Made by a program: the position numbers and the translations under genes. From Candidatus Auribacterota bacterium (lineage in GTDB: Bacteria; Auribacterota; JAFGBW01): 34,033 nt of DNA. Location: NCBI GenBank assembly GCA_016932965.1, contig JAFGBW010000048.1:1-34033 (forward strand), written 5' to 3'. Within the stretch, counting starts at the first letter, position 1. The number at the start of each line of letters is the position of its first letter. Below the pieces are notes generated by a model, which worked only from the letters and a program-made list of their open reading frames with translations, searched no databases and was not told the origin of the DNA. Below, one piece after another: positions 16,452-33,506 of the stretch.

Positions 16452-19400
16452 ATGTTAAAACACTTAATACTAGTCATTTTCTTGTTTTATTTTGATGAGG
16501 AACCGTGTGTTAAAAAGCAGGTCCCCATCATTCAGAAGATATTCGGCTCAGATATAGATGCGGTTTCTTTTTGTTACGATTCCCTTGCCCCGCGCTCAAG
16601 GATAAAAGAACTTCCCAGCCATTCACGTTTTACTGCTGAAGAGTTGAAGGCGCATCAGGAAACTCCTATTGTGAATGCCATTCAGGAGAAAGCAAGGAAT
16701 GCTGTAGCCAGGTATTGCACTCCAGGCCATATGGGGGTACTTTATCCCGGAATAACAGCAGGGCTGCTTAAAGCGATTGAACCGGTACTGGCTTATGATT
16801 TTTCTGTTTCTATACAACATGCGGATGATCTGGTGCATCCGTCCACGTATATTCGCAGATCTGAGAAATTAATGGCGAATGCCTTTGGCGCGGACCGTTC
16901 TTCGATGCTGACCGGTGAAAGGAATCAGGCCAATCAGCTGGCTATGCGTAGCTATCTGCATGAGGGAGATGAGGTTCTGGTAGGGGGGATTGAAGTCGGG
17001 ACCATGATTTTGGATGGATTGGCGGAATTAAATGTCCGGCCGACACTGATCCCGACACCAAGAGATGCGGACGGGAAGCTCACTTTGAGTCCTGATGCCC
17101 AGACCATCATAGACATGATCGAACAGGCTGCAGTAAAAGCCAGAGAGACCCTGAAGCATTTAAAGAAGGAAAGAAAACACGTGATCCCTCTTACCGGATA
17201 CAAGGCTTTCATGCCCCGCGCTCTTATTTTATGTCAGCCTTCTTCTTATGGAACGGCCATAGTGGGACTGAAAAAAATCGTTCAAAAAGCTCATGAACAT
17301 GGGATGGTCGTCCATATTCAGGAAAGGGGAACCCCTTATCATTTTCATGATGATTTTCCTGAATCCGGAGTTGATGCCGGAGCCGATTTTGTTGTCCAGC
17401 CTTTTAGCGGGATCGTTCCCGGTTTTTTACAGGCCAGCGTGATACACCGGAATTTGAAATTTCTGTTCGAAGAAGATGCCTGGGCCACATTCAACCATAT
17501 TGTGGAGGTCACTGAATTGAGCGGGAATAAGTTGAGAGCCGCCAACAGGTATTTTAAGAACACATTAAAAATGTTTGATGAAATCAGTCGTCTGGAAAAA
17601 GATATCTCTGAAGTAGACCATGCAGGGGAAATAGCCAGAGTGACAGAAAGGATAAAGAATACAATGGATCGGATTGTCGGTTTGGTACCGGAGTCCGACC
17701 AGGGTTGGGTGCACTCTTCATTAAACGAGCTGTTTTCTTTTCAGGGTAAATCCGAGCAGATATTCAACCAGATAAAAGCCAGTTTTGTGTCCACCAGTTT
17801 TTCTTATGTTTCTCTGTGTGTCATGGATGATATCCGGAAATCGCTTGTGATGAACGGAAATAAATTTTTACAGGATGTCTTGGAAACCCGGAATCATTCG
17901 ATCAAGGTATTCAACCAGACTCTCATACAGGAGGTCCAAACCAGTTGTCAAACCGAATGGAGATCAAGCCTGACAAGTGAACCTACGCTATCTGAATTGG
18001 ACCGGGCTCAGAAAATAGCTGGAATAAAGCTTCATCCTGAAACTGCTCAAACAACAGGGTCGGATCCTTTCAAAATCAGCATCCGTTTTAATCAAAATCC
18101 AAACGGCTGGACAGCAAGAGCCATGCAGGAACGGCTCAAAAGGGATCCACAATGGAGAGTGATCGTGCAGGGGGCGAATCTTTCAACTTTGGCTTGTATC
18201 ATCAATCCTAGATATGCCTTGACAGATGAGATTCCTGATGTCATGAAACATATCATCCATATTACCCTGACTGAGAAGCCTACGAGTATTTTTATGGGTA
18301 AACCTGATGAGGCAGTGCTTCAAACACTTGTTCAGATACCTGGTTATGAAGAAAGGGTGATAGACGCTATTCCGTCCCCGGAAAAAAGACAGATGGCCAT
18401 GACTAATTTCGAAACCAATCTTCATTGGGATCATGTAGTACGTCTTTCCTGTTCAAAACTCATAGAGGAACCAGACCCTGATACTCGTTTTGTCTTAGCT
18501 GAAGACGTCATCATTCCTTATTTAGGAACCAATGCCATTTTCTTGCGCGGAACTGTTGTTGATGTATCCTTCAGAGGGTTTTTGAAAACCCTTTCCCAGG
18601 AAAGCGTGGATTATGTTTCTTATTTTAATATTTCCGGAATGTATCGCCGGGCGGGGAGAGAACCTTCGATGATGGTCATTCCACAGAAGAAAGAGGGGGA
18701 TAAATGGAAAACCGATGAGGCTTTTTCCGGAGGAGAGGGGCATGATCAATCTCTTCCTGAGATTGAAGAGAGATTGAAACCGGGAACAGAGGCCTATAGA
18801 AGGGCCCAACTGGAAGAACCGACGATCAGTCATTATCTGGAACAGGCGAAACTTTTTTCGCAAGATAAACGGACTACAGACCTGTATATGCCTGTCGCAG
18901 AGGCAGGTATTCCTTCCTATTTTGATTCCCCTTTTTTACAGAAGTTGAGTGAGCCAGTGACATACGATATGCCGTATAATTTTGATCCGCAGATCCCTTT
19001 TTTTATTGAAAAATCCCGTAAAGCACTGGCCAGATTAGTCGGTGCTGCGGATGCCTATTTTGTTCCGCAAGGGAGCACTCAATCCAATCAAATTGTCATG
19101 CAGTCTTATTTAAGATCAGGGGACAGGGTCATGCTGACCAGTAATTATCATCGTTCCATCGCCGGAGTGTTGAGCACGTTTAATTTGAAACCACCGATTT
19201 TGATCGATACGAAAAAGACAACGATCGAGGAAGGTTTTGTGGATGTCGGAGCCTCCTCTGAAGACATGATCTCAGCCATCCGTCAGGAGGTGGAACAGTC
19301 AAAAATCATGGCCCGCAGGGCAGGGGATGAAACAAATTATCAGGCGTTCATGCCCCGGGCCATTATCATCACAGCCCCTACTTATTATGGTTCCAGTCCT

Positions 19401-20600
19401 GATAAGTTGAAGGAAGTCATTGACGAGGCTCATGCGCACGGAATGCTCGTTCATGTGGATGAAGCCTGGGGATCGCATCTTCCGTTTCATCATGACTTTC
19501 CTTCCTCGGCTGTTGAATTAGGAGCGGATTATGTGGTGACTTCTTTTCATAAAACTGTACTGGGACTTCAGCAGTCATCGGTGGCTTATGTCAGTGCCCA
19601 AAGACGTTTTCATTCGGAGGAGGAGAGGATCCGTTTTGAATGGAAAATGCGCAAAGAGGTGCAGACATTGACTTCTTTATATCCCAACCTGCTGATGATC
19701 GGCGCTATTGATGCAGTCCGAAAATTTATAGCCGGCCAATATGCTCTTAAAGATTCCGGTATTTTTCATGACATCATAAGAATCCGTAAGCAAGCGGTTG
19801 ATGGATCTCTTGAAGGCCTGACTGAGGCAGGTATCAAGTTATTGGATTGCAACCAATTGGCGATGGGCGAAGATGGGATGGTCACAAGAAATATTCATGC
19901 GCCCCCAGAAAAAAGGCCTTTCAGACAGGATCCTTCCAAACTGGTTTTAAATTTCAAAGGGGCCGTCAATGAATGGAATGCTATTCTTGTGGCAAAAATT
20001 CTGGAAAGCGAAGGCTATATTCTTGAATTGGTGGACCCCTTTAATATTGTTTTGCTGCTGCCGTTAAATATCGTGACCCATGAACAGAAACTTTACGGTC
20101 TCCTGAAAATAATCACTGAACTTGTTATAAACCGATCCCCTTCTGATTTTATAGAAACCGGAATATTGCATGCGGAGGACCTGACCAAATTTCAATTTGT
20201 ATCCGAGGCTTTTTCCGCATTGAATAGAATGAAATTACAGCAAGTCATGAGTCCCCATGAAGTGCTTCAATCTATCATCCGGCCGGAGTTGATGCCTCCA
20301 GGCATTCAATATAAATATCTCCCTCTTTCAAAAACGTTTCCGAAGAGTGACAAGCGGTACATCCTGACAGAACAGGTCCTTTTGTATCCTCCGGGAGCAC
20401 CGGGGACTTTTTTACCTGGATTTGAAATCACTTCCGGATTCATCAATGCGGTTTCGAGTATATCCAAAGCAGGTATTGTGATGCATGGAGTGGAAAAGAA
20501 TCAAGGGGAACCCTATGTATGGGTGCTGGAAATCGAAGGCGAACCGTGTTTAGTGGATGCCATAGGGCCTGTTTTCAGAGGAACCGGGAGGTCTTCATGA
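16452..20600 (+). CDS. Tandem Orn/Lys/Arg decarboxylase-like fold-type-I PLP protein; N-terminal half lacks catalytic motifs, C-terminal half keeps SFHKT
   Basis: Two aligned repeats: 'YKAFMPRALILCQPSSYG...AHEHGMVVHIQERGTPYHFHDDFPESGVDAGADFVVQPFSGIVPG' and 'YQAFMPRAIIITAPTYYG...AHAHGMLVHVDEAWGSHLPFHHDFPSSAVELGADYVVTSFHKTVLG'. Start codon uncertain. Confidence 0.85.
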   Translation: MLKHLILVIFLFYFDEEPCVKKQVPIIQKIFGSDIDAVSFCYDSLAPRSRIKELPSHSRFTAEELKAHQETPIVNAIQEKARNAVARYCTPGHMGVLYPGITAGLLKAIEPVLAYDFSVSIQHADDLVHPSTYIRRSEKLMANAFGADRSSMLTGERNQANQLAMRSYLHEGDEVLVGGIEVGTMILDGLAELNVRPTLIPTPRDADGKLTLSPDAQTIIDMIEQAAVKARETLKHLKKERKHVIPLTGYKAFMPRALILCQPSSYGTAIVGLKKIVQKAHEHGMVVHIQERGTPYHFHDDFPESGVDAGADFVVQPFSGIVPGFLQASVIHRNLKFLFEEDAWATFNHIVEVTELSGNKLRAANRYFKNTLKMFDEISRLEKDISEVDHAGEIARVTERIKNTMDRIVGLVPESDQGWVHSSLNELFSFQGKSEQIFNQIKASFVSTSFSYVSLCVMDDIRKSLVMNGNKFLQDVLETRNHSIKVFNQTLIQEVQTSCQTEWRSSLTSEPTLSELDRAQKIAGIKLHPETAQTTGSDPFKISIRFNQNPNGWTARAMQERLKRDPQWRVIVQGANLSTLACIINPRYALTDEIPDVMKHIIHITLTEKPTSIFMGKPDEAVLQTLVQIPGYEERVIDAIPSPEKRQMAMTNFETNLHWDHVVRLSCSKLIEEPDPDTRFVLAEDVIIPYLGTNAIFLRGTVVDVSFRGFLKTLSQESVDYVSYFNISGMYRRAGREPSMMVIPQKKEGDKWKTDEAFSGGEGHDQSLPEIEERLKPGTEAYRRAQLEEPTISHYLEQAKLFSQDKRTTDLYMPVAEAGIPSYFDSPFLQKLSEPVTYDMPYNFDPQIPFFIEKSRKALARLVGAADAYFVPQGSTQSNQIVMQSYLRSGDRVMLTSNYHRSIAGVLSTFNLKPPILIDTKKTTIEEGFVDVGASSEDMISAIRQEVEQSKIMARRAGDETNYQAFMPRAIIITAPTYYGSSPDKLKEVIDEAHAHGMLVHVDEAWGSHLPFHHDFPSSAVELGADYVVTSFHKTVLGLQQSSVAYVSAQRRFHSEEERIRFEWKMRKEVQTLTSLYPNLLMIGAIDAVRKFIAGQYALKDSGIFHDIIRIRKQAVDGSLEGLTEAGIKLLDCNQLAMGEDGMVTRNIHAPPEKRPFRQDPSKLVLNFKGAVNEWNAILVAKILESEGYILELVDPFNIVLLLPLNIVTHEQKLYGLLKIITELVINRSPSDFIETGILHAEDLTKFQFVSEAFSALNRMKLQQVMSPHEVLQSIIRPELMPPGIQYKYLPLSKTFPKSDKRYILTEQVLLYPPGAPGTFLPGFEITSGFINAVSSISKAGIVMHGVEKNQGEPYVWVLEIEGEPCLVDAIGPVFRGTGRSS

Positions 20601-21577
20601 TGATCAGGAAGTTTTTATCAGGAAGCATCATGGTGTTCGTTCTTTTCTGCTATGTTTATCCTTTGTATGCCGTAACGAATTCGGCATTAGCCCCGAATTC
20701 TTCAGTGAATGGAACGTTTCTGCTCAAGAGGGTGACTCTCGATCCCAATGACAGGGGGGCGTTTACTGATATGATGGATCTGATCGAGGCGAATTTTCCT
20801 CCTGAAGAAAGACGGCCTGCTACACGAGCCGGCAGATTAAGAGTAGCCGGATTGATGCAGAGACATGGAGGAAATTGGGATGTATTCATGGCTGAATACA
20901 CGGCTCAAAAGTTATCTGATGGTCTGGTGACAGGACTTTCTTTTGAAGAATTGCTCGAACGGGAAAATTTTTATGCCTATATTTATTATTTTCATGAAAT
21001 TCCCATCGCTGTAGGGATTTTCATTAAAATAAATGATCAATTTGTCTTGGGGGATTATATCACGGTTTCAACTAAAAAAGTTCCAAAGGAGCTGCTTCCT
21101 GAGATCCAGGGTGTGAGCGGAGACTTGTTCGGGCAATTTTTTGATTTTGTTGAATCCCAGCTTGGCAGCGGAATCAGCGTGCTGATTGAATGTGAAAAGC
21201 CGTCCATGAGATCTGACCAGCGCCCCGACCGGGAAGATAAGAGAAAAGTGGCCCGGATTGCCTGGTATACCCGGTCTTTAGGATTCACTTTTATCAAGAA
21301 TCCATCGACTGAAGACATGCTGGAATATCTTCTGCCCAGTGTGAGCGGGACTCCGGCTTCCGTGGCTATTTTCATGCATCCCATGAAGAATAGTCCTTAC
21401 GCCGGCCTCAGGAGGAATGAACCCAGTATATGGGGCGGATGGTTCCAGGGGGAAAAAGCACCGGTCATAGAAGTTGCCCCGGAGACCTGCGGATTGATCA
21501 TCGCAAATTTAAGGGCGCAGTATTTGGCCCCAGACGCAGTTCTACCTACTGATTTCCCCGGGAAGGCTTCAGGGTAA
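20597..21577 (+). CDS. GNAT-like N-acetyltransferase protein with N-terminal hydrophobic/signal-like segment
   Basis: ATG in ATGA overlap with the decarboxylase stop: MMIRKFLSGSIMVFVLFCYVYPLYAVTNSALAPNSS...EANFPPEERR...IPIAVGIFIKINDQFVLGDYITVS...RIAWYTRSLGF. The ORF-track start at 20519 is probably too early. Confidence 0.55.
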   Translation: MMIRKFLSGSIMVFVLFCYVYPLYAVTNSALAPNSSVNGTFLLKRVTLDPNDRGAFTDMMDLIEANFPPEERRPATRAGRLRVAGLMQRHGGNWDVFMAEYTAQKLSDGLVTGLSFEELLERENFYAYIYYFHEIPIAVGIFIKINDQFVLGDYITVSTKKVPKELLPEIQGVSGDLFGQFFDFVESQLGSGISVLIECEKPSMRSDQRPDREDKRKVARIAWYTRSLGFTFIKNPSTEDMLEYLLPSVSGTPASVAIFMHPMKNSPYAGLRRNEPSIWGGWFQGEKAPVIEVAPETCGLIIANLRAQYLAPDAVLPTDFPGKASG

Positions 21578-21612: not shown

Positions 21613-23703
21613 TTAAAATTTCTTTGAAACTCCCACAGAGTATTGCCTGGCTGAAACAAGCTGATCCGCAAGCGGATAATCCGTCAGGCTCGCAGGAGCG
21701 TATATTTCTTCATCCGTAATATTGTAGACGGAGAAATAAATGTTCCATCCCTTGTCCTGAATGTTATCAAATCTGAATGTGGTATCAAAAACAGTGGTCG
21801 AGGATATTTCTTCCCTGGGATCACCCGCCTCACGGGGCATTTCTCCGGTGTAATCCATGTTGATATCCCAGTTGAATATGCCTTTATGCAGATTGAGACC
21901 AAAGGTAAATTGATTTTTTGGAATCCTGGGCAGATCAATATCCAGTTGCTCATCCTCTCCCTTGGTATAGGCATAGCTGCCGTATACATAATTTTTTTCC
22001 GCGAAATTGAATCGCATTTCGAATTCTGTCCCCCAGACATTGGTTTTTCCATAATTGATATAATATCTGGGAAACGTAGGCTGGGTGTAGTCCCTGTCAT
22101 TGGAAAGATCGATCAAATCACGGGTTTTTAAGTTATACACGCTGAGAAAAGTCTGCAGCTTTTCAGCAAAGATATAATTGACAGAAGCTTCTATGGAGGT
22201 GAGTGTTTCCGGGTCCAGGTTTGGATTGCCGATAATAAAAGGATTATTCCGGTCATAAAGCTGGGAAAAACTCGGTGATTTGAAGGCGGTTCCATACATT
22301 AATTTAAAAATGTCGCCTTTGTTGTTGAATGTCCATACGAGTCCGCATCTCGGATTAAACGTGCTGCCGAAATCATTAAATTTATCATATCTTCCGCCGA
22401 GAATCAGATACCAGTTATCTGAGATGGTCCATTCATCCTGAAGGAAAACCCCTGAAATTCTTCTGGTTTCAGGAATGATCCATGGGGCAATTTCAGACCA
22501 GTCAACGGTAACCGGATAACTGATGAAATACAGAGGATGTCCGTTTGCGGAATTTCCGATATCGCTGGTTTTCACCTGTTCAAAGAAAACACCTAAAAGG
22601 ATCTCATTGGTGTCACTGGAACGGATGTCCAGCATGATTTCACCGCGGTATTCCTCGGATTTATAGGTGTAATTCCCGTGAACACCTTCCGGCCAGTATT
22701 CGATATAGCCGTCTCCGTCTATGTCCATGCCCATGGTGTAATGATCAGGCAATACCTGAAAATCATCATCGCTGGAGTAGCGATCGTAAGATAATTTAGT
22801 TTTGACAATCATATTGTCTGTCAGGGAAAAATGATAGTTGCTTTCAATGAAGAAGAATTTCAAGGTGGAATTTTCCCCGTCTTCTGTCAACGCTCCCATT
22901 TGAGGGACGGGAAAGTCGAATTCCGTATCCGTGTAACTGGCATCCAAGTTCCAGTCTTTATACCGGTAATTGAGATCCAACAGCATTTTGGTTGCCCCGT
23001 TTTTCATTTCATTGGGGGCATAGGACAGCCCTGTTCCGTATAGGATATCTTGTTCCAGGGTGTTTTCAGGGCCGTCTGTTTTGGAATAATTGGCATTGAT
23101 TCCTAAATCCCAGTTTGTGGCTCCTTTTCCATATTGGATATTGGCCCGCATGGCATTGAAAGATTCTATTTTTACATCCGCAGACCCGCCATCTAAATCC
23201 GAAGGCTTTTTGGTAATGATGTTGATGATCCCGGCAAAAGCATTGGTTCCGTATAAGCAGGAACCGGGTCCCCGAATGATTTCTACCTGTTGGATATTTT
23301 CCAGACCAATATCATAAAATTCAGATCCTCCGAAAACAGGTTCCATGAGCGTGTGTCCGTTGACCATGAATTTGAATTTGTCGTTGACCACACCAGGAGC
23401 AATGCCGCGCAAGGTGACGATATTCACTCCATAGGTATTTTTGTATACTTCGATTCCCGGTACTTTGTTCAACAATTCGGAAAGGGTTCTCAATCCTTTC
23501 GACTTTATTTCCATTTCAGTGATTACGGTGATCGTTGAAGGGGCATTGAACGGGTCTTTTTCAGTCATGGTGGAGGTGATGACTTTAGGGATTTCCATGA
23601 ATAATAAAGCTTCCAGTCCTTCTTCTTCCTGGGCAGAGGCAAATCCTCCTGCCAAGAGAAGATAAATGGCAAGCAAATCTGTAAACAGATTTCTTTTTTT
23701 CAC
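21613..23703 (-). CDS. TonB-dependent outer-membrane receptor
   Basis: 696 aa: signal peptide MKKRNLFTDLLAIYLLLAGGFASAQ; plug PSTITVITEMEIKSKGLRTLSELLNKVPGIEVYKN...VEIIRGPGSCLYGTNAFAGIINIITKKP; C-terminal ...VSARQYSVGVSKKF. Confidence 0.95.
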   Translation of the reverse strand: MKKRNLFTDLLAIYLLLAGGFASAQEEEGLEALLFMEIPKVITSTMTEKDPFNAPSTITVITEMEIKSKGLRTLSELLNKVPGIEVYKNTYGVNIVTLRGIAPGVVNDKFKFMVNGHTLMEPVFGGSEFYDIGLENIQQVEIIRGPGSCLYGTNAFAGIINIITKKPSDLDGGSADVKIESFNAMRANIQYGKGATNWDLGINANYSKTDGPENTLEQDILYGTGLSYAPNEMKNGATKMLLDLNYRYKDWNLDASYTDTEFDFPVPQMGALTEDGENSTLKFFFIESNYHFSLTDNMIVKTKLSYDRYSSDDDFQVLPDHYTMGMDIDGDGYIEYWPEGVHGNYTYKSEEYRGEIMLDIRSSDTNEILLGVFFEQVKTSDIGNSANGHPLYFISYPVTVDWSEIAPWIIPETRRISGVFLQDEWTISDNWYLILGGRYDKFNDFGSTFNPRCGLVWTFNNKGDIFKLMYGTAFKSPSFSQLYDRNNPFIIGNPNLDPETLTSIEASVNYIFAEKLQTFLSVYNLKTRDLIDLSNDRDYTQPTFPRYYINYGKTNVWGTEFEMRFNFAEKNYVYGSYAYTKGEDEQLDIDLPRIPKNQFTFGLNLHKGIFNWDINMDYTGEMPREAGDPREEISSTTVFDTTFRFDNIQDKGWNIYFSVYNITDEEIYAPASLTDYPLADQLVSARQYSVGVSKKF

Positions 23704-23808
23704 GACAGACCTCCTTTTAATGTGATCATGAACAGGTTTTTACCTTATGATCTGGATTTTTTAAATTTTGTGAAACAGAATAAACAAAGATGATTTTTAA
23801 AACAAGGT

Positions 23809-23888
23809 TTATTTAAACCGGATTCGGGGATCAATAATGCTGTAACTGATATCGGAGAGGAGATTTCCCATGAGGAGAAGAGCCGTAT
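23809..23888 (-). pseudogene. Orphan 3' end of OppB/DppB-type ABC permease gene (duplicate of 33533-33612)
   Basis: Reverse strand reads ...HTALLLMGNLLSDISYSIIDPRIRFK*, matching the end of the permease at 33533-34033 (NTALLLVGNLLSDISYSIIDPRIRFK*). Confidence 0.85.
23811..23888. repeat. Left copy of 78-bp direct repeat flanking the AT-rich block
   Basis: Aligned to 33535-33612 with two mismatches (23818 C/A, 23871 T/C). Confidence 0.95.
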
Positions 23889-23932
23889 GAATCAAGAGTT
23901 TCACGATCGGTTTTCTGAGTTTACTCGACCGA

Positions 23933-23973
23933 GGGACAAATACTATACTATTATCTATTCTTGAGAATGTCCC
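23933..23973. repeat. REP-like inverted motif GGGACAAATACTAT...GAATGTCCC
   Basis: GGGACA (23933-23938) and TGTCCC (23968-23973) inverted; GGGACAAAT-N-CTAT is shared with the palindrome at 33499-33544. Confidence 0.5.
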
Positions 23974-24137
23974 CTATTCCCTATTCCATCGGAAGTGATC
24001 TTTTTCTGAAAGGAATATTTAGCTGTTTGTATCCGTGAATCGTATTTGATAGAAAAATCGTGATTAATTTTGAAGGAATTGTGGTGAGAGCTTTTAAAAT
24101 TGAAAACTCTCCTTTTTTTTTCAATAATTCAACTTTC

Positions 24138-24415
24138 ATGAATAAGACATTACTACTAAAACTGTTGATTGGTGATTTTACATTAAAACGATTATTTAAA
24201 TCTGTTTTTTTACATATTTTTTCTTTTTTATTTTCGGGGGTGTTCTTTTCTGATCACCTGATTTTTCGTCCTATACCTCGCTATTATACGATGAGATTCA
24301 GCATTTTATTATCCTGAATACCAATGACGGCAATAAGTTATATGGAATTCATTTTAAAAAAAAGCAAATATACAATCCTGTATTTCCACACAAAAAATTT
24401 GAGGTAGCATCATGA
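24138..24415 (+). pseudogene. Frameshifted N-terminal remnant of an alpha/beta-hydrolase-like gene
   Basis: Frame 1 MNKTLLLKLLIGDFTLKRLFKSVFLHIFSFLFSGVFFSDHLIFRPIPRYY, then a shift near 24287 to YDEIQHFIILNTNDGNKLYGIHFKKKQIYNPVF...EVAS*. Resembles the TM anchor plus 'LIFxPxPxxY...DG.xLxGxxF' start of membrane-anchored alpha/beta hydrolases. Confidence 0.45.
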
Positions 24416-25389
24416 TGACATTTATTAAAGCATATATAAAATCAATGCGTTTATACTACGCTTTTATTACGGGAATTGCCGGCTGGCTCGGGCTTTCATT
24501 CTATGAACATATTGCAACTGATTTCAGAACTGTAGAAATAATGCCTGCTGATGAAAAAAAAGGAGTTATATTAATATTATTATTTTTAAGCTGGGGGATA
24601 AATCAGATCTTCAATGATCTGTTAGGTTTGAAAGAAGACCGTATTAATGCTCCAGAAAGACCAATGGTAACAGGAGAACTCAACCCTTTTGCTGCTTCTA
24701 TTGTGTCATTTATTCTAATTATAATAACCGGCTTCATAACCTATTTTTATCTTGAACCAATTGCTATTTTGCCTTTTCTGGGGGGCATCATATTAAACAT
24801 GATTTATGAATTTGCAAAGGGATATGGAATATTAGGAAATGTAATTTTTGGATTAATGATTGCCATGTGTTCAATTTTCGGCTTTCTGGCAGCAGGTCCG
24901 ACACAAGCACCATATCTTACACAAAGCCGTTTATCAGTATTGAGCTTGATATGGTTAATGAACGGACTGATGACATTTTATACATATTTTAAAGACTATG
25001 AGGGTGATAAAGCAGTTAACAAGAGAACAATTGTCGTAAAATATGGAATCGAAAAATCAAGAATTATTGCCATAATGTCTTCTTTTCTGCCGTCAATTTT
25101 ATTTATTATAATATATTTACTTAATCTCATTGATGCACCGCTTAATAAGATATTCATCATTTTGGCTTTACTAACCTTTTTCCTGCAGGTATGGACCGGT
25201 GTGCTTTATTACAAAAATCCTGTCGGTAAAATGACATATTATTCGTTGGCAACAAATTTCAGGGCATGTACCTGCGGTCAGGCTGCATTTATTGCACTTT
25301 TTAATACTGAGCTTGCCATGCTCTTATTTCTATTTTCATATATTTTCGTCGGATTTTTATTTGATCTGCATACCAACCAGAAAGCCTGA
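24412..25389 (+). CDS. UbiA-superfamily transferase-like membrane protein
   Basis: 325 aa, multi-TM; first motif NDLLGLKEDRINAPERPMVTGEL, second motif YFKDYEGDKAVNKRTIVVKYG. Confidence 0.85.
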   Translation: MMTFIKAYIKSMRLYYAFITGIAGWLGLSFYEHIATDFRTVEIMPADEKKGVILILLFLSWGINQIFNDLLGLKEDRINAPERPMVTGELNPFAASIVSFILIIITGFITYFYLEPIAILPFLGGIILNMIYEFAKGYGILGNVIFGLMIAMCSIFGFLAAGPTQAPYLTQSRLSVLSLIWLMNGLMTFYTYFKDYEGDKAVNKRTIVVKYGIEKSRIIAIMSSFLPSILFIIIYLLNLIDAPLNKIFIILALLTFFLQVWTGVLYYKNPVGKMTYYSLATNFRACTCGQAAFIALFNTELAMLLFLFSYIFVGFLFDLHTNQKA

Positions 25390-25391
25390 AC

Positions 25392-26600
25392 ATGAAGGTC
25401 TTTGAACGGGCAGAAATCGGTAGCATTGAACTGAATAACAGAATAATCCGTTCATCCACTTTTGAAGGCATGGCGGATAATAACGGCTTTCCGACAGAAG
25501 AATATTTCACCCTCTATGAAAAATTATCAAAAAATAATATCGGGGGTATTATTACCGGATGCACATATATCTCAAAAGACGGAAAAATGGTCCAGCCCGG
25601 ACAGGCAGGGATTGACGATGATGAAAAAACTGCATCTTTCAAAAAAGTTACAGCAATTGTACATAAAAATAATTCAAAAATTTTTATGCAGATTTCTCAT
25701 GCAGGCAGACAGACGATATCTGACCTGATTAAAACCGAATGTATCTATGGATTCTCGGATAAAAAATCATTCTACTTCAATCAAAAGCCTATAGTATTAT
25801 CAAACAGTCAAATCCGTGATTTGATAGAAAAATTCGGGGATGCTGCAAAACGCGCACAATCAGCGGACTTTGATGGAATCCAGTTACATGCGGCCCACGG
25901 ATATTTAATACATCAGTCTATTTTATCATCAGTTAACAGCCGTGCTGATGAATTCGGCATAGATAAAAAAACTAAAATCGGCACAAAATTTCTTGATCTG
26001 ATTATTGAAAACATACGAAATAAATGCGGACCTGACTATCCCATACTTGTAAAAATAAGTGGGAGTGATGATTATATTCGCAAGTTTTCAGAATTACAAT
26101 TTATTGAATTGATCAGATTTCTCAATTCAAAACAAATTTCAGCGATAGAAATAAGTTACGGAACAATGGATTATGCATTAAATATTTTCAGAGGTAAAAG
26201 TATACCCTATGATTTCATATTAAAACACAATATAAAATATAAAACGAATAAATCATTGATTAAAAATATTTATAACTATCTGCTGTTCGCCATGTTGAAA
26301 CTTAAAACAATTCCTTTCGCGCTCGGATATAATATAAATTTTTCTATTTTGGCAAAAAAATATACTTCTATTCCTGTTATCTCAGTAGGCGGGTTTTTAA
26401 ATGGCAATGATATTTCAGATGCCATAGAGAATCATAAGGCAGATTTTGTAAGTTTATCCCGCGCTTTGATTGCTGAACCTGCATTTGTCAGCAGACTGAT
26501 TAATAAAGCTGACGATAAATCAATTTGTGCGAGCTGCAACAGATGTGCAATTATGTGTGACTCAAACCTGTCAACCAGATGCTTTGCCTTGAAAAGATAG
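25392..26600 (+). CDS. OYE-like NADH:flavin oxidoreductase with C-terminal cysteine cluster
   Basis: 402 aa TIM barrel: IMQISHAGRQT, FDGIQLHAAHGYLIHQSILSSVNSRADEFG, IPVISVGGF, FVSLSRALIAEPAFVSRL, CASCNRCAIMCDSNLSTRC. Confidence 0.88.
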   Translation: MKVFERAEIGSIELNNRIIRSSTFEGMADNNGFPTEEYFTLYEKLSKNNIGGIITGCTYISKDGKMVQPGQAGIDDDEKTASFKKVTAIVHKNNSKIFMQISHAGRQTISDLIKTECIYGFSDKKSFYFNQKPIVLSNSQIRDLIEKFGDAAKRAQSADFDGIQLHAAHGYLIHQSILSSVNSRADEFGIDKKTKIGTKFLDLIIENIRNKCGPDYPILVKISGSDDYIRKFSELQFIELIRFLNSKQISAIEISYGTMDYALNIFRGKSIPYDFILKHNIKYKTNKSLIKNIYNYLLFAMLKLKTIPFALGYNINFSILAKKYTSIPVISVGGFLNGNDISDAIENHKADFVSLSRALIAEPAFVSRLINKADDKSICASCNRCAIMCDSNLSTRCFALKR

Positions 26601-26857
26601 AAAAAACGGAGAATATTTTGAATATAGAAGAAAAAATAATATCAATAATACAGGAAAATCTTGAGGAAAAACATCCGGTCACTTTAGAATCTGACCTCCG
26701 CAACGATCTTACAATAGACTCATTCGGCACAATCATGATTTTGAATTCATTGGAAGATGAGTTCGGTATAACAATTGATGAACATGATTTTAAAGACATT
26801 GTAAAAGTCAATGATGTAATAAATCATATTAAAAGTAAAATAAATGAAAGCCAGTGA
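26579..26857 (+). CDS. Acyl carrier protein
   Basis: NIEEKIISIIQENLEEKHPVTLESDLRNDLTIDSFGTIMILNSLEDEFGITIDEHDFKDIVKVNDVINHIKSKI; phosphopantetheine site DSF. Start could instead be TTG near 26618. Confidence 0.85.
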   Translation: MLCLEKIEKTENILNIEEKIISIIQENLEEKHPVTLESDLRNDLTIDSFGTIMILNSLEDEFGITIDEHDFKDIVKVNDVINHIKSKINESQ

Positions 26858-28022
26858 ATTTTACAATTCTTTAAAAATTGATAAAAGCATTGCCGAAAAA
26901 CTGAATTTCAACCCATATTATATCAATCTTAATTCCGGAATCTCTGGAATTGTAAGAATAGGGCAGGAATATTACTATGACCTGGCATCAAATAATTATC
27001 TGGGATTATCATCAGATAAACGAATTATTGAAGTAATGCAGGAATCGCTCTTTAAATACGGCACATCCATGTGCGGTACACCTATTGCCACCGGATATCT
27101 GGACAAACTTAATGAGCTTGAAAAAAGACTGGCCTCATTTATAGGCCTTCAGGATGCCATCATATTCCCTTCCTGTTACCAGGCAAATACAGGTGTATTT
27201 TCAAGCATGGCCTCAAAAGATGATCTGATCTTGGTTGACCATTACGCGCATTCTTCACTTCTTCAGGGAATCAGATCGGCGGGCTGTAAAATAAAGCCAT
27301 TTCTACACAACAATATGAACCATCTGATAAAGAATCTGGAAAAATCCAGTCATTTCAGAAAAAAATTTATTGTAACAGAATCTGTATTTTCAACTGAAGG
27401 AACAATTGCCCCGATGGATGAAATTTCAAATATTTGCAAACATTACGATGCAATTCCAGTACTTGATGATTCCCATGGTATTGGCGTTATCGGTAAAACC
27501 GGAAGAGGGATTCTTGAAAAACAGAACATACTTAATTTTGAAGGTATTTATACCGCATCATTGGGAAAAGCCCTTGCAAATATCGGCGGTGTTATAGCCG
27601 GGAACAGCAATTTAATAGACAATTTAAGATATTCATGCGGAAATTTTATATACTCAACAGCAATACCCCCGGTTATGATATGCGGTCTTTTAAAAACCAT
27701 TGAAATACTTGAAAATGAATTCACATTTTTAAATTTGAGGTTATTAAACAACAAACAAAAGATAATAAATACGCTTACGAGCAGAGGTTTTAAATTGCAT
27801 AACGGGGAAGCTCCGATTATTTCGATAAAATGCGGATCTGCAGAAAACACAATATATTCAGCCAGACAATTCTTTGAAAATAGAATGCTTACCACACCGT
27901 TTATTCCTCCTTCTATTCCTCAGAATCAGGGTGTATTAAGATTAATCCCCGGAGCAGGACTCAAGGAGAATGATATTACTGAAATAGTTAAAGCTATAAA
28001 TAAAATACAGGCCCTTAAATGA
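26844..28022 (+). CDS. Alpha-oxoamine synthase (AONS/KBL/serine-palmitoyltransferase family)
   Basis: 392 aa: LASNNYLGLSSDKR, YGTSMCGTPIATGYLDKLNELEKRLASFIG, VDHYAHSSLLQGIRSAG, LDDSHGIGVIGKTGRG, PLP-lysine region TASLGKALANIGG. Confidence 0.93.
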   Translation: MKASEFYNSLKIDKSIAEKLNFNPYYINLNSGISGIVRIGQEYYYDLASNNYLGLSSDKRIIEVMQESLFKYGTSMCGTPIATGYLDKLNELEKRLASFIGLQDAIIFPSCYQANTGVFSSMASKDDLILVDHYAHSSLLQGIRSAGCKIKPFLHNNMNHLIKNLEKSSHFRKKFIVTESVFSTEGTIAPMDEISNICKHYDAIPVLDDSHGIGVIGKTGRGILEKQNILNFEGIYTASLGKALANIGGVIAGNSNLIDNLRYSCGNFIYSTAIPPVMICGLLKTIEILENEFTFLNLRLLNNKQKIINTLTSRGFKLHNGEAPIISIKCGSAENTIYSARQFFENRMLTTPFIPPSIPQNQGVLRLIPGAGLKENDITEIVKAINKIQALK

Positions 28023-28939
28023 AGTGCTTTTTAATTCTAAATCCTGGCTCAAAAAACGGTAAAAGCAGGAATAGTATTAACCGCATTATAAATGATCTTA
28101 AAAACACCAATTTAAGTTTTGATTATAAAATGACACAAACTTTGAAAGATGCATGTTTATTTTCAAAAGAAGCGAATTATTCAGATAAGTACGATGCTGT
28201 AATTGCAGTCGGGGGAGACGGGACAATAAATCAGACCTTGAACGGGTTTTATGATGATAAAGGCAGAAGAATTTCAAAAACAAAAATGGGGGTGATATAT
28301 ACAGGAACAAGCCCGGATTTCTGCAGAAATTATAACATCCCTGTTGATCCTGAAAAATCAATACGCACATTACTTAATCAGAAATCCAGATTCATTTCAA
28401 TCGGCCGGATTGAATGCAGTTCATCAGAAAGCATGTATTTTTCCTGCGCTGTTAATATTGGAATCGGCCCGGAATTAGCCAGAAGTGCTAACAGCGGAAT
28501 TCGGGCGAAACTGGGCGATTTTTTCGGGACATTTTATTCACTTCTGAAAATTCTTTATTCGTTTAAACCCGGCGAATATGAAATGACTATTGATAATAAT
28601 AAACAGAAACTCTCAGGAATTTATAATATTTCTATAGGCAAGGGATATAATATCGCTTCAGGAATAAAAGTATCAAATTCATTAACAGATACCTCAGATA
28701 ATCTTTATATTTTAAAAATTCAGAACCTTAATATTTTCAACATCCCCAATGTGTTATATACCGTTTATTCAGGGGGGGTAATTACCAACAATAAATATTT
28801 AGAGTTATCATACGGGAAAGAAATAACTGTATCAAATTTACGTACTGAATCTGAAATCGAATTTGATGGTGATCCTCATGGATTCCTTCCATGTAAAATA
28901 AAAACAGCAGAAGACAAACTGGAACTTATAACAGATTAG
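28019..28939 (+). CDS. Diacylglycerol-kinase-family lipid kinase
   Basis: 306 aa: FLILNPGSKNGKS, DAVIAVGGDGTINQTLNGF, MGVIYTGTSPDFCRN, EIEFDGDPHGFLPCKI. Confidence 0.9.
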   Translation: MKCFLILNPGSKNGKSRNSINRIINDLKNTNLSFDYKMTQTLKDACLFSKEANYSDKYDAVIAVGGDGTINQTLNGFYDDKGRRISKTKMGVIYTGTSPDFCRNYNIPVDPEKSIRTLLNQKSRFISIGRIECSSSESMYFSCAVNIGIGPELARSANSGIRAKLGDFFGTFYSLLKILYSFKPGEYEMTIDNNKQKLSGIYNISIGKGYNIASGIKVSNSLTDTSDNLYILKIQNLNIFNIPNVLYTVYSGGVITNNKYLELSYGKEITVSNLRTESEIEFDGDPHGFLPCKIKTAEDKLELITD

Positions 28940-28943
28940 TTCA

Positions 28944-29960
28944 ATGAACACTGAATTTGAAATTATAAAAATGATTGATAAAGTCTTATCACCTTCCCCA
29001 TCAAAATTAACTCAAATATATGAATCGGATTCGGAACTTTTTTATTTGAATAAAAAAAAATATCTTTGGAGTATAGATGATTTTTCTTCAGAAGATTATT
29101 TAATATCTTCCAATCCGGAGCAGTTAGGCTGGAATCTGGCGGCTGCAACAATAAGCGACATATACGCCTGCGGCGGCATCCCCGAATATTACAGTCATTC
29201 TGTCACGCTCGATAGCAACTGGGATAACAAATATATTTTAAAATTCTGCACTGGAATTAAAAAAGCTTTACAATATGCAGGGGTTGAATTCATTGCAGGA
29301 GATCTGAGTATTGCAAAAAACTGGAAATATACGGGAACTGTCATAGGAAAATCAGATGAAAAATTTGTATGCAGAAAAGGGGCTTGTCCGGGGGACAAAA
29401 TATATATTACCGGGAAAACAGGCTCCGGAAATCTTGAAGCGATTTTGAAATTAAATCAGAATAACACATATTTAAAGGAATTTTTTGCATCCCATAAATT
29501 CAAATTACCCATACGAAAAAAGGAATCCGGATTGATAAAAAAATATGCTTCATCCTGCATTGATACTTCAGACGGATTAATTAATGCTTTAAACACAATA
29601 TCAATGTTAAATAAAACAGGATTTTTGATTAATAACCCGGAATTAATCAAAGAATCAGGATTAATATCAAAAATAATGCATCTGCCTGAAGAATTACTGC
29701 TTGCAGGAGAGTGCGGAGAATATGAGCTGCTTTTTACAGTAAATCCGAAAAAGGCACATGATTTCCTGACCGAAGCCAAAAATAACCGCCTGAAATTTTA
29801 TTGTCTGGGACAAATGCTATCGTCTTTTAAATCGAAAATATTAATGAAGGGAAAAATTCAAATTGACATTTCTGATTTCAATTTCAGGGCAAGAGATTTC
29901 ATTAATCCTGAAACTTATATAGAATCCATGTGTAATTTTTTTAAAGGAAAACCCTATTAA
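28944..29960 (+). CDS. ThiL/AIR-synthase-superfamily kinase-like protein
   Basis: 338 aa: NLAAATISDIYACGGIPEYYSHSVTL, VEFIAGDLSIAKNWKYTGTVIGK, PGDKIYITGKTGSG, SSCIDTSDGLINAL, LAGECGEYELLFTV. Confidence 0.85.
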   Translation: MNTEFEIIKMIDKVLSPSPSKLTQIYESDSELFYLNKKKYLWSIDDFSSEDYLISSNPEQLGWNLAAATISDIYACGGIPEYYSHSVTLDSNWDNKYILKFCTGIKKALQYAGVEFIAGDLSIAKNWKYTGTVIGKSDEKFVCRKGACPGDKIYITGKTGSGNLEAILKLNQNNTYLKEFFASHKFKLPIRKKESGLIKKYASSCIDTSDGLINALNTISMLNKTGFLINNPELIKESGLISKIMHLPEELLLAGECGEYELLFTVNPKKAHDFLTEAKNNRLKFYCLGQMLSSFKSKILMKGKIQIDISDFNFRARDFINPETYIESMCNFFKGKPY

Positions 29961-31174
29961 TGACAAATCGTGTTGTTATTACAGGTATAGGACCTGTTTC
30001 ATCTATCGGTACAGGAAAAGACATATTTTTCAGAAATTTACTGGACCTGAAACTGAATATCTCAGAAATTTTTTCTGAATTTAAAGGATATAAATACAAG
30101 TCTAGGTTTGTTTCCCCTATGCCTGAATTTTCCCTGGAAGACATGAATATTCCATCCTCTATATATAAGATACTGCAGGATGAGGACAAATTAACATTAA
30201 AATCAGCAAAACTTGCGCTAGATGATGCGCATATAGACCTGAAAGAAATATCTGAATGCAGCATTATTTTAGGCACTGGTTTCAGTGGCTTGCAAAGGGC
30301 ATTTGAATCTTACCTTGTGCATATCGGAGTTGATGAAAAAAGATTCCATAGAATGATTATTCCTCAGACGATGCCTAATTCAGTTGCTGCATGGTTATCA
30401 ATCATATTTAAAATTAAAGGATCAAGCTTTACAATTAATGCGTCGTGCGCTTCCGGAACAATCGCCATTGGCGAAGCATATTTAAAAATAAAGAATGGAA
30501 ACGATAAGATAATAATAACAGGGGGTGTTGAATGTTTAAAAGATAAACATGGTGCTATCCGAAGAGGATTTGATGTTCTTGATACCCTGACAAAAGATGA
30601 GAACGGAGTCCCTTATCCATTTTCAAAAAACAGATCAGGATTTCTTTTTAATGAAGGAGCGGCCTGTATATTAATTCTTGAAAATCTGGACAACGCTATA
30701 ATAAGAAAAGCAGATATATATGCTGAAATTACAGATTATAAATCTAATAGCGACAGTTTTAATATTGTCCAAATTGAACCATCCGGAGAATCTATTAAAA
30801 ATTTGTTAATAAGTATTATAAATAAGAAGAAAATAGATTATATCAATACACATGGAACAGGCACCATTCCGAATGATGAAGTTGAAAGCAGAATAATCAG
30901 GGAAATATTCGGCAATAAAAATAATCAGCCTTTTCTTAATTCATCCAAGGGTATTCTAGGACACACACTGGGAGCAAGCGGAGCCTTTGAAACTGCAATT
31001 ACTGCATTATCTATTAAAGAATCAAAATTACACCCTAATAATATACCTGAACCAATGGAAAATTTAAATCTGATACCTGAAAAAACGGAATCTATAATCC
31101 ATAATGCAATTACAACTTCATATGGCTTTGGAGGGCATAATGCTGCCCTTTTCTTAAAAAGAATCGAATTATGA
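29960..31174 (+). CDS. Beta-ketoacyl-ACP synthase (FabF-like)
   Basis: 404 aa: VVITGIGPVSSIGTG, nucleophile NASCASGTIAIGEA, NTHGTGTIPNDEVESRII, SSKGILGHTLGASGAFETA (Cys-His-His triad present). Confidence 0.93.
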   Translation: MTNRVVITGIGPVSSIGTGKDIFFRNLLDLKLNISEIFSEFKGYKYKSRFVSPMPEFSLEDMNIPSSIYKILQDEDKLTLKSAKLALDDAHIDLKEISECSIILGTGFSGLQRAFESYLVHIGVDEKRFHRMIIPQTMPNSVAAWLSIIFKIKGSSFTINASCASGTIAIGEAYLKIKNGNDKIIITGGVECLKDKHGAIRRGFDVLDTLTKDENGVPYPFSKNRSGFLFNEGAACILILENLDNAIIRKADIYAEITDYKSNSDSFNIVQIEPSGESIKNLLISIINKKKIDYINTHGTGTIPNDEVESRIIREIFGNKNNQPFLNSSKGILGHTLGASGAFETAITALSIKESKLHPNNIPEPMENLNLIPEKTESIIHNAITTSYGFGGHNAALFLKRIEL

Positions 31175-32217
31175 AAGATAAAATTTTCATAACCGGTGCA
31201 AATGGTTTTATCGGCAGTCATATAACAGAATTATTTATAACTAACGGGTTTGATGTCGTATGTATACTTAGACAAGACAGTAACAGAAAAAATATTGAAC
31301 ACCTAAAAATTAAAACTTTCACCGGTGATATAACTGATTTGAATGCATTAACTGAAGCTATGAAGTCATGCACTTTTGTCATCCATTGTGCTGCTCATGT
31401 AAAAGATTGGGGTATATATGATGATTTTTATAAAACAAATGTTGTGGGAACATTAAATGTTATAAAAGCATGTCAGGCAAACAATATTAAAAATATTATT
31501 ATAACCGGATCAATTTCATCATATGGCGAAGAGGATAGTAAAACTGTAAAAAATGAAGATAGCCCTTATAATCCGCATTATCCCTATTTTCTGGATAAAG
31601 TTTTTCATTCACCTTTTAACTTTTACAGGGATACTAAAGCTCTTGCGACACGGACTGCAATAGAATATGCCTGCAAGTATAATTTAAATCTGACTGTTTT
31701 AGAACCCGCATGGGTTTATGGTGAGCGTGAATTCAATACTGGTTTTTTTGAATATCTGAAAACAGTTAAAAACGGAATTAAAATTATGCCTGGATCAAAA
31801 CAGAATAAATTTCATGTCATTTATGTAAAGGACCTGGCAAAAGCTTATTTGGCAGCCTTTAATCATAAATTAAAAGGCATTAACCGAATAATTATTGGAA
31901 ATAAAGAAGCCGACAACATGTGCAAAATATTTTTTAGTTTTTGTATAAAAGCAGGAATTAATCCCCCATATCTTGTGCCAAAATGGATAATCTATCCAAT
32001 TGGGTTTCTTCTAGAACTTGTTTACAAAATATTTAATGTTAAAACACCCCCGCTGTTAATGAGAAGCCGGATCAATATGTTTTATGACAATATTGAATAC
32101 GGTACAAGCAAATCCGAAACCATGTTAAATTTCAAATGCGATTATTCTCTCGAAAATGGGATAGAAAATACTGTTAACTGGTATAAGTTACACAACTATA
32201 TTCAGGAAACTGTCTAA
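31171..32217 (+). CDS. Extended SDR: NAD-dependent epimerase/3beta-HSD-like
   Basis: 348 aa: FITGANGFIGSHITELF, GDITDLNAL, VIHCAAHVKDWG, NVVGTLNVIKAC, ITGSISSYGE, active-site YRDTK. Confidence 0.9.
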   Translation: MKDKIFITGANGFIGSHITELFITNGFDVVCILRQDSNRKNIEHLKIKTFTGDITDLNALTEAMKSCTFVIHCAAHVKDWGIYDDFYKTNVVGTLNVIKACQANNIKNIIITGSISSYGEEDSKTVKNEDSPYNPHYPYFLDKVFHSPFNFYRDTKALATRTAIEYACKYNLNLTVLEPAWVYGEREFNTGFFEYLKTVKNGIKIMPGSKQNKFHVIYVKDLAKAYLAAFNHKLKGINRIIIGNKEADNMCKIFFSFCIKAGINPPYLVPKWIIYPIGFLLELVYKIFNVKTPPLLMRSRINMFYDNIEYGTSKSETMLNFKCDYSLENGIENTVNWYKLHNYIQETV

Positions 32218-33506
32218 TGGTAAATATTCAGAATATACAGGGAATAAATAAATATTTTTTGAATATAAGAATAAAAATCTCTGTGCTGTATTACTTTTTA
32301 AAATTTATTTTACATAAAAAAATCACTGTTAATTTATTTATTAGGATACTCAAACGCTTAAACTATTTTTTATCAACTTTGCAGCACAATAAATTTGTTA
32401 AAATTGGAAATAAAACAAGACTTGGCTTATATATCCCTGGATATCCGTCAAATGCCTTTTATACAGCGTGTAGAAAATTCGCAGTTTTTAATGAAAAATT
32501 ACCCAATACAACTGTTTTATTATCAATAACAAAAGCCTGCCGTTTTGACTGCCCGCATTGTTATCAGAAAAATGATCTGGGAAAAGACATGGATATTAAT
32601 ACTTTAATCAATGCAGTAAAAATTCTTCAGGATTCAGGAACAGCTTTTTTTAATATTGAGGGCGGAGAACCATTTCTTGTTTACGATCGGCTGAAAAAAG
32701 TCTGTGAATCTATTGATTCCCGTTCTGAAATCTGGATAAATTCAACAGGCGATGCAATGGATCTGGATAAATTGAACGGATTAAAAAAATTAAACGTTAC
32801 TGCAATAATGTTTTCATTGCACAGTCCATATCCTGAAAAATTAAATGAGTTCATGCGCTCAGAAATTGCATGGGAAACGATGCGGAATGGTATTGCTTTA
32901 TGCCATAAAGCTGATATTCCGGTTGCATTGAACACATGTCTCCCAAAGGAAGATTTTTATAACGGTAATTTTCAAAAATTAATGGATATTGCAAGGGACT
33001 TGAATGCGTCAATTATTCAAATAATCAAGCCTAAATCAACAGGAGGCTGGTTAAACACCGATGTTTCACATTTTTCGCAGGATGATCTGGATCATGTTAA
33101 AAAAACAGTAAATCTATACAATAATGATAAAAAATATAAATCCTATCCTTCAATATCCGCCCAGATAATAGAAGAAGATGAAAATATGTTCGGCTGTACT
33201 GCCGGGGGAACTGACCGATTTTATATTAATGCAAAAGGTGATGTGCAGCCATGTGAATTTTTAAATATCTCTTTTGGAAACATTCAGGAAGAAAATTTTG
33301 AAACAATATACAAGAGAATGAGAAATGTTTTTAATGAACCATGCGAATGCTGGGTATGTGAGACATATTGCAAGGAAATATTAAAAATAAAGAATGAAAA
33401 TAATATTAAATCTTTACCGTTGGATACTATACTTTCCGAGCAGATATATAAAAACTGGAATCGCGGAAGAAGCACAAAATTATACAAAAAAATTGAATCG
33501 TTTTAA
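32217..33506 (+). CDS. Radical SAM protein with SPASM-like C-terminus
   Basis: 429 aa: SITKACRFDCPHCYQKNDLG (CxxxCxxC), FFNIEGGEPFLVYDRL, C-terminal FGCTAGGTDRFYINAKGDVQPCEF...EPCECWVCETYC; long hydrophobic/basic N-terminal extension. Confidence 0.9.
   Translation: MVNIQNIQGINKYFLNIRIKISVLYYFLKFILHKKITVNLFIRILKRLNYFLSTLQHNKFVKIGNKTRLGLYIPGYPSNAFYTACRKFAVFNEKLPNTTVLLSITKACRFDCPHCYQKNDLGKDMDINTLINAVKILQDSGTAFFNIEGGEPFLVYDRLKKVCESIDSRSEIWINSTGDAMDLDKLNGLKKLNVTAIMFSLHSPYPEKLNEFMRSEIAWETMRNGIALCHKADIPVALNTCLPKEDFYNGNFQKLMDIARDLNASIIQIIKPKSTGGWLNTDVSHFSQDDLDHVKKTVNLYNNDKKYKSYPSISAQIIEEDENMFGCTAGGTDRFYINAKGDVQPCEFLNISFGNIQEENFETIYKRMRNVFNEPCECWVCETYCKEILKIKNENNIKSLPLDTILSEQIYKNWNRGRSTKLYKKIESF

Follow-up and report, generated by a model that had tools for sequence, protein, structure and literature searches.

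The question raised by a 34,033-nucleotide stretch of contig JAFGBW010000048.1 from Candidatus Auribacterota bacterium (assembly GCA_016932965.1; the whole stretch is referred to here as the window) is what a single polypeptide does with two copies of a decarboxylase, one of which lacks its cofactor-binding lysine. The forward-strand open reading frame (ORF) at 16452-20600 consists of 1382 codons in one frame with no internal stops, and encodes two joined versions of the pyridoxal phosphate (PLP)-dependent ornithine/lysine/arginine (Orn/Lys/Arg) decarboxylase domain. The data presented here show that each half retains most of what the other has lost, a pattern that suggests that the fused chain is probably an intramolecular pseudo-dimer with a single composite active site.

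The two halves of the 1382-residue protein are homologous, as a sequence-only reading of the window had claimed. Local alignment of the N-half with the C-half gave a score of 297, far above the 40 ± 6 obtained with shuffled sequences, with 106 identities in 363 columns. The Pfam family OKR_DC_1 (PF01276) matches both the N-half (E value 1.9e-18, 66.8 bits) and the C-half (2e-32, 112.9 bits), in each case above the curated cut-off of 27 bits. Neither half, however, contains all of the conserved motifs in one catalytic domain, and the fused protein belongs to PF01276 by profile but breaks the family rule of all motifs in a single domain. The first core domain starts after around 60 residues, and no profile match to a REC or wing domain, which occupies ∼130-150 N-terminal residues in extended forms of the family, was found in the fused protein. 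The motifs quoted in the earlier reading, TGERNQANQ (16911-16937), VHIQERGTPYHFH (17310-17348), PQGSTQSNQ, VHVDEAWGSHLPFH (19449-19490) and SFHKT (19542-19556, with its Lys codon at 19551-19553), are all present, although PFSGIVPG lies at 17400-17423 rather than at 17398-17415, where it had been placed. The observation is therefore confirmed as real and unusual.

The N-half has lost its catalytic apparatus. The Schiff-base lysine is replaced by Gly320 and the Asp that binds the cofactor by Gln290, in agreement with the two losses previously proposed, and further changes convert the neighbouring His to S319, the Ser to P317 and the phosphate-loop Gly to E156. Also missing are the ring His and phosphate loop typical of the family, with TGERNQANQ at the position of the latter. 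A displaced catalytic lysine, which had been named as the result that would overturn the earlier interpretation, is excluded in the N-half, as residues 280-335 contain no Lys and the nearest after the lost one is K336. The elements that this half does keep are PGH, DxLxxP and TSxSY, while the YPPGIP position of its C-terminal domain is degenerate. Between the position of the lost lysine and TSxSY there is an insertion of ∼95 residues (residues ∼345-440; 17484-17771), which is probably helical and is absent from the single-domain relatives in the alignment.

The C-half displays the converse pattern. The SxHK lysine, the Asp of DEA(H/W)G, the ring His and the phosphate loop are found only here (S1031, H1033, K1034, D1003, H900 and G874), as is the YPPG motif of the C-terminal domain. 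The C-half is unmatched, however, over the first 68 (Pfam) or 79 (profile of 26 relatives) positions of the family, where PGH and DxLxxP lie. Alignment of the region corresponding to D116 and D125 is uncertain, D839 being scored as kept by one method and the region left unaligned by the other. Judged alone, the C-half appears to be an incomplete enzyme. Its previous description as ‘active-looking’ holds with respect to the cis catalytic set, but does not extend to a complete enzyme, as the start of the family is unmatched and TSxSY is altered.

Single-domain relatives match the fused protein in two pieces, with residues ∼50-220 of the N-half corresponding to their N-terminal part and residues ∼850-1100 of the C-half to their catalytic part, which prompted a column-by-column test of conservation. 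The reference set comprised 26 single-domain proteins from across bacteria, mostly of 440-530 residues with two of ∼645, in which 40 columns are conserved at 96% or more. In the profile of these relatives, three stretches of positions align with the N-half (10-170, 175-255 and 263-313), and a single one, 80-492, with the C-half. The N-half keeps 18 and the C-half 30 of the 40 columns, while the union of the two retains 38. Upstream of the phosphate loop all six columns are kept by the N-half and none by the C-half; from the phosphate loop to the lysine the respective numbers are 8 and 18 of 20, after the lysine 4 and 2 of 4, and in the C-terminal region 0 and 10 of 10. Columns kept by one half only are divided between N-half and C-half 8 to 0 outside the catalytic block and 0 to 10 inside it (Fisher p 2e-5, a descriptive value, as the region borders were set once the alignment had first been inspected and adjacent columns are interdependent). 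An initial MAFFT alignment pointed in the same direction but more weakly (6/0 versus 1/11, p 0.0004), and the Pfam profile independently gave the same split, at positions 1-263 for the N-half and 69-412 for the C-half. Of a further 19 single-domain relatives that are not part of the profile, 14 retain no fewer than 5/6, 17/20, 3/4 and 8/10 columns in the four groups, and the remaining five fall below the threshold in just one or two groups. The losses in the two halves are thus complementary.

This pattern of retention, with the cis catalytic residues in one half and the partner-supplied residues in the other, fits the geometry of fold-type-I PLP enzymes and thereby points to a shared site. 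In aspartate aminotransferase Tyr70 and Arg292 both come from the partner subunit. Tyr70 is located at the subunit interface and at the phosphate, with Arg292 being found at the carboxylate of the substrate (PMC6715241). The former precedes the phosphate loop and the latter lies ∼34 residues past the lysine; the N-half keeps both equivalent regions, while the elements that are provided in cis in aspartate aminotransferase are retained by the C-half. Fold-type-I active sites draw residues from both subunits (PMC9081730), and in the OKR-decarboxylase family the active site is at the dimer interface and activity needs dimerisation (PMC4832331; PMC8983666). It is likely, to judge from these sequence comparisons, that the halves of the fused chain pack like the family homodimer, with the N-half motifs acting in trans on the C-half site. 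The C-half would supply the phosphate loop, His900, Asp1003, Lys1034 and the YPPG C-terminal domain, whereas the N-half, its own catalysis lost, would have retained the surface that completes the site of the partner in homodimers (PGH, DxLxxP and TSxSY). Each chain would then contain one composite active site, predicted to decarboxylate Arg, Lys or Orn, and a second, mirror-image site that is dead. The complementary pattern supports the earlier proposal that an internal pseudoenzyme may contribute in cis to the active site. The other role suggested there, a regulatory surface, is possible. That the dead site, in which the PLP cavity of the N-half faces the C-half, has become an allosteric pocket that would bind a ligand such as a polyamine or nucleotide is conceivable but rather doubtful.

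The halves probably arose by internal duplication. The segment that precedes PTYYG and ends in Y(Q/K)AFMPRA is 59 and 49 residues long in the two halves compared with 24-32 in the 26 relatives, and the insertion common to both halves, found in none of these relatives, is better evidence for duplication than the tree, in which the N-half and C-half group together with a support of 96/97. The simplest history would be a tandem duplication, followed by in-frame fusion and complementary loss. Among 44 genomes of the phylum the fusion, for which the earlier reading had suggested a search in related genomes, occurs only in the genome of the window. No ORF of >1000 residues was among the matches listed from 384 sampled relatives, the genome of the window apart, or among those listed from 149 genomes of another phylum, and two further phyla, represented by 54 and 386 genomes, gave no strong match in searches that lacked a positive control. 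In all, the searches of roughly 1,000 genomes yielded no second copy of the fusion. Peptide-pattern scans of an 84,980-species collection, which detect close relatives only, returned no relatives. The two matches to peptides from the two-half alignment appear to be an amylase-type and a branching-enzyme-type protein that share just EAHAHGM by chance, the one match on viral contigs was an ordinary single-domain decarboxylase, and a plasmid tblastn search contained only single-domain relatives among the matches listed; long matching ORFs (837-951 residues) were ordinary extended forms, not fusions. The same genome, which is 93% complete, contains no other PF01276 protein, one alanine-racemase-fold decarboxylase, which is LysA, and no match to arginase or agmatinase. 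The fused protein is thus the sole member found, besides LysA, in a scan that covered these two PLP decarboxylase families and not pyruvoyl arginine decarboxylases or other fold-type-I families.

Several observations weigh against the composite-site model. The TS element of the C-half is possibly retained but displaced by two residues (T1074-S1075, in TSLYP). In two extended relatives of 939-951 residues, L060 and L061, PVARG or PIARG replaces PGHKG and only 2/6 upstream columns are kept, and hence the similar MPVAEAG of the C-half is not decisive as a loss; the variant may mark a distinct subfamily. The assignment of the N-half motifs as trans-acting draws on analogy with the partner-derived Tyr70 and Arg292 of aspartate aminotransferase, and with LdcI and the Lactobacillus ornithine decarboxylase, in which Thr398 and Ser396, respectively, of the TSPxY region presumably contact the phosphate from the partner subunit. 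The branches joined in the tree are both long, and the program cautions that groupings of this kind may be spurious. An AlphaFold model of the N-half, derived from a three-row alignment, was unusable (predicted local distance difference test (pLDDT) 41, predicted template modelling score 0.34), and selection is not measurable as the fusion is carried by one genome only.

Some of these points would favour an arrangement in which two chains pair through their C-halves as a normal two-site homodimer, and the N-half is a pseudoenzyme with a regulatory or scaffolding role away from the active site. Such an arrangement is consistent with the almost whole cis catalytic set and C-terminal domain of the C-half, with a TS element that might be displaced rather than lost, and with the extended relatives bearing the PVARG variant, which are presumably still active homodimers. 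It is unlikely, however, as the first 68-79 positions of the profile, DxLxxP among them, are missing from the C-half and its TSxSY is unmatched. Precisely those elements are kept by the N-half, which no longer has catalytic and C-terminal motifs of its own; a purely regulatory function would not lead one to expect this.

The very high divergence of both halves (end branches of 3.3 and 2.6 substitutions per site) and the lack of a known relative of the fusion might instead indicate a non-enzyme, in which both halves are drifting or have been turned into a binding or regulatory protein. The intact 1382-codon frame, the even GC content, overall and at third codon positions (GC3), over both halves, and the conservation of 18/20 columns in the catalytic block of the C-half and 38/40 in the union make this distinctly improbable, as random drift would not spare complementary sets of residues. 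An assembly or frameshift artefact that joined two neighbouring genes, which the sequence-only reading had recognised as a possible refutation, is more improbable still. Although the contig derives from a draft genome of 300 contigs, the single open frame without stops and the equal GC and GC3 in the N-half, linker and C-half speak against it, and as separate products neither half would be complete, the C-half being without the family N-terminus and the N-half without catalysis and the C-terminal motifs.

If the composite-site model is correct, the fused protein would work most like the glycine-cleavage P-protein and serine palmitoyltransferase, although it is a member of neither. The fused P-protein (glycine decarboxylase), also a PLP decarboxylase, reportedly comprises two homologous fold-type-I halves with the lysine in the C-terminal half only and one site per pseudo-dimer, and the protein described here likewise consists of two homologous PLP-fold halves of which only the C-terminal one has the lysine. 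The GDC-P profile is not among the Pfam or NCBIfam matches of the fused protein, which is from another family and represents an independent case of the same architecture without shared family-level descent. In eukaryotic serine palmitoyltransferase the LCB1 subunit has no such lysine while retaining other residues of the active site, and a single site per LCB1/LCB2 heterodimer has been hypothesised (PMC3794620). The likeness lies in a fold-type-I PLP pair in which one partner has lost the lysine, and the complementary conservation in the fused protein would fit a lysine-free partner that completes the site of the other. LCB1 and LCB2, however, are products of separate genes and belong to another family that catalyses another reaction. 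A dead paralogue is also required by an active polyamine-pathway decarboxylase in trypanosomes, AdoMetDC with its prozyme; these are, however, separate proteins, the enzyme is an unrelated pyruvoyl decarboxylase, and the prozyme relieves autoinhibition instead of donating active-site residues (PMC5201418).

Within the decarboxylases, the extended forms LdcI, AdiA and SpeF have the PF01276 core in common with the fused protein, and an active site at the dimer interface, but in contrast to these enzymes the extra length of the fused protein is a second decarboxylase copy and not REC or wing domains. The ancestral-form arginine, ornithine and lysine decarboxylases with the aspartate aminotransferase fold (SpeA/YaaO type, ∼480-500 residues), described in a 2021 study (PMC8503589), contain the same Pfam domain, sharing catalytic motifs with the C-half and upstream motifs with the N-half at ∼22-27% identity, but have one catalytic domain per chain, whereas the fused protein has two divergent copies, neither of which is complete. 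The same study describes a fusobacterial aODC-arginase fusion, in which a decarboxylase of this fold is joined to a probably inactive enzyme domain that is homologous to arginase; there the decarboxylase domain by itself matches the complete fusion in activity (PMC8503589). The passages of this study that describe REC-domain and arginase fusions do not mention a double-decarboxylase fusion (PMC8503589).

Features of the fused decarboxylase and of the gene that follows it (positions in the window).
Feature	Position	Strand	Remark
Fused OKR-decarboxylase ORF	16452..20600	+	1382 aa, ATG start
N-half PLP domain, PF01276 match	16662..17480	+	profile positions 1-263
PGH (P91-G92-H93)	16722..16730	+	kept in N-half; predicted partner-supplied (trans) element
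D125-x-L127-xx-P130	16824..16841	+	kept in N-half; degenerate or deleted in C-half
Insertion ending YKAFMPRA, N-half	17091..17222	+	shared with C-half; absent from 26 single-domain relatives
Gln290	17319..17321	+	replaces invariant Asp binding PLP N1
Gly320	17409..17411	+	replaces PLP Schiff-base lysine
T448-S449-x-S-Y452	17793..17807	+	kept in N-half; predicted partner-supplied phosphate contact
YLGTNA	18519..18536	+	degenerate YPPGIP position, N-half C-terminal domain
YMPVAEAG	18885..18908	+	degenerate PGH position in C-half
C-half PLP domain, PF01276 match	19008..20069	+	profile positions 69-412
PQGSTQSNQ	19065..19091	+	phosphate loop kept in C-half
NYHRS	19143..19157	+	ring-stacking His900 and Ser902 kept in C-half
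Insertion ending YQAFMPRA, C-half	19251..19361	+	shared with N-half
Asp1003 (VHVDEAWGSH)	19458..19460	+	catalytic Asp kept
Lys1034 (SFHKT)	19551..19553	+	predicted PLP Schiff base
TSLYPNL	19671..19691	+	degenerate or displaced TS motif in C-half
YPPGAP	20385..20402	+	C-terminal domain; kept in C-half only
Following gene	20597..21577	+	326 aa; ATGA overlap with decarboxylase stop; no family match

The exact start codon of the fused ORF is uncertain, and a good ribosome-binding site is absent just upstream of the ATG; an alternative in-frame GTG start near 16509 was discarded as the codon there is GTT. The ATGA overlap with the following gene suggests translational coupling. The product of this gene has a signal-like N-terminus, and parts of it resemble GNAT acetyltransferases by eye. 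It has no Pfam, NCBIfam or convincing PDB matches, was not found in the other 43 genomes of the phylum, and gave a single-sequence AlphaFold model with a pLDDT of 31. Both coupled proteins contain the motif (D/N)S-(x)-LAP-x-S near the N-terminus (DSLAPRS at 16578 and NSALAPNS at 20678, + strand), which a six-frame scan found nowhere else in the window. A TonB-dependent receptor gene (21613-23703, - strand), which matches siderophore-, heme- and B12-type models, all below their cut-offs, is convergent with the decarboxylase operon. From ∼23800 to 33506 the GC content drops from ∼45% to ∼34% and a co-directional gene run begins, encoding a UbiA prenyltransferase, an OYE-like flavoenzyme, a BioF/Kbl-like PLP acyltransferase, a lipid kinase, a ThiL-like kinase, KAS II, an SDR and a radical SAM/SPASM protein; this run may represent an acquired biosynthetic cluster.

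Separate and joint expression of the two halves is feasible, which makes the idea of a shared site directly testable. Should the mirror-image site prove to be an allosteric pocket, one chain would contain both a catalytic site and an internal sensor that originated as another copy of this enzyme. If the composite-site model is correct, the complementary degeneration of duplicated enzyme copies would have been fixed in one polypeptide, converting a homodimer into a single-chain, one-site enzyme, an independent case beside the glycine-cleavage P-protein and serine palmitoyltransferase. It would also show which conserved residues of the decarboxylase family act in trans, information that is hard to obtain from symmetric homodimers.

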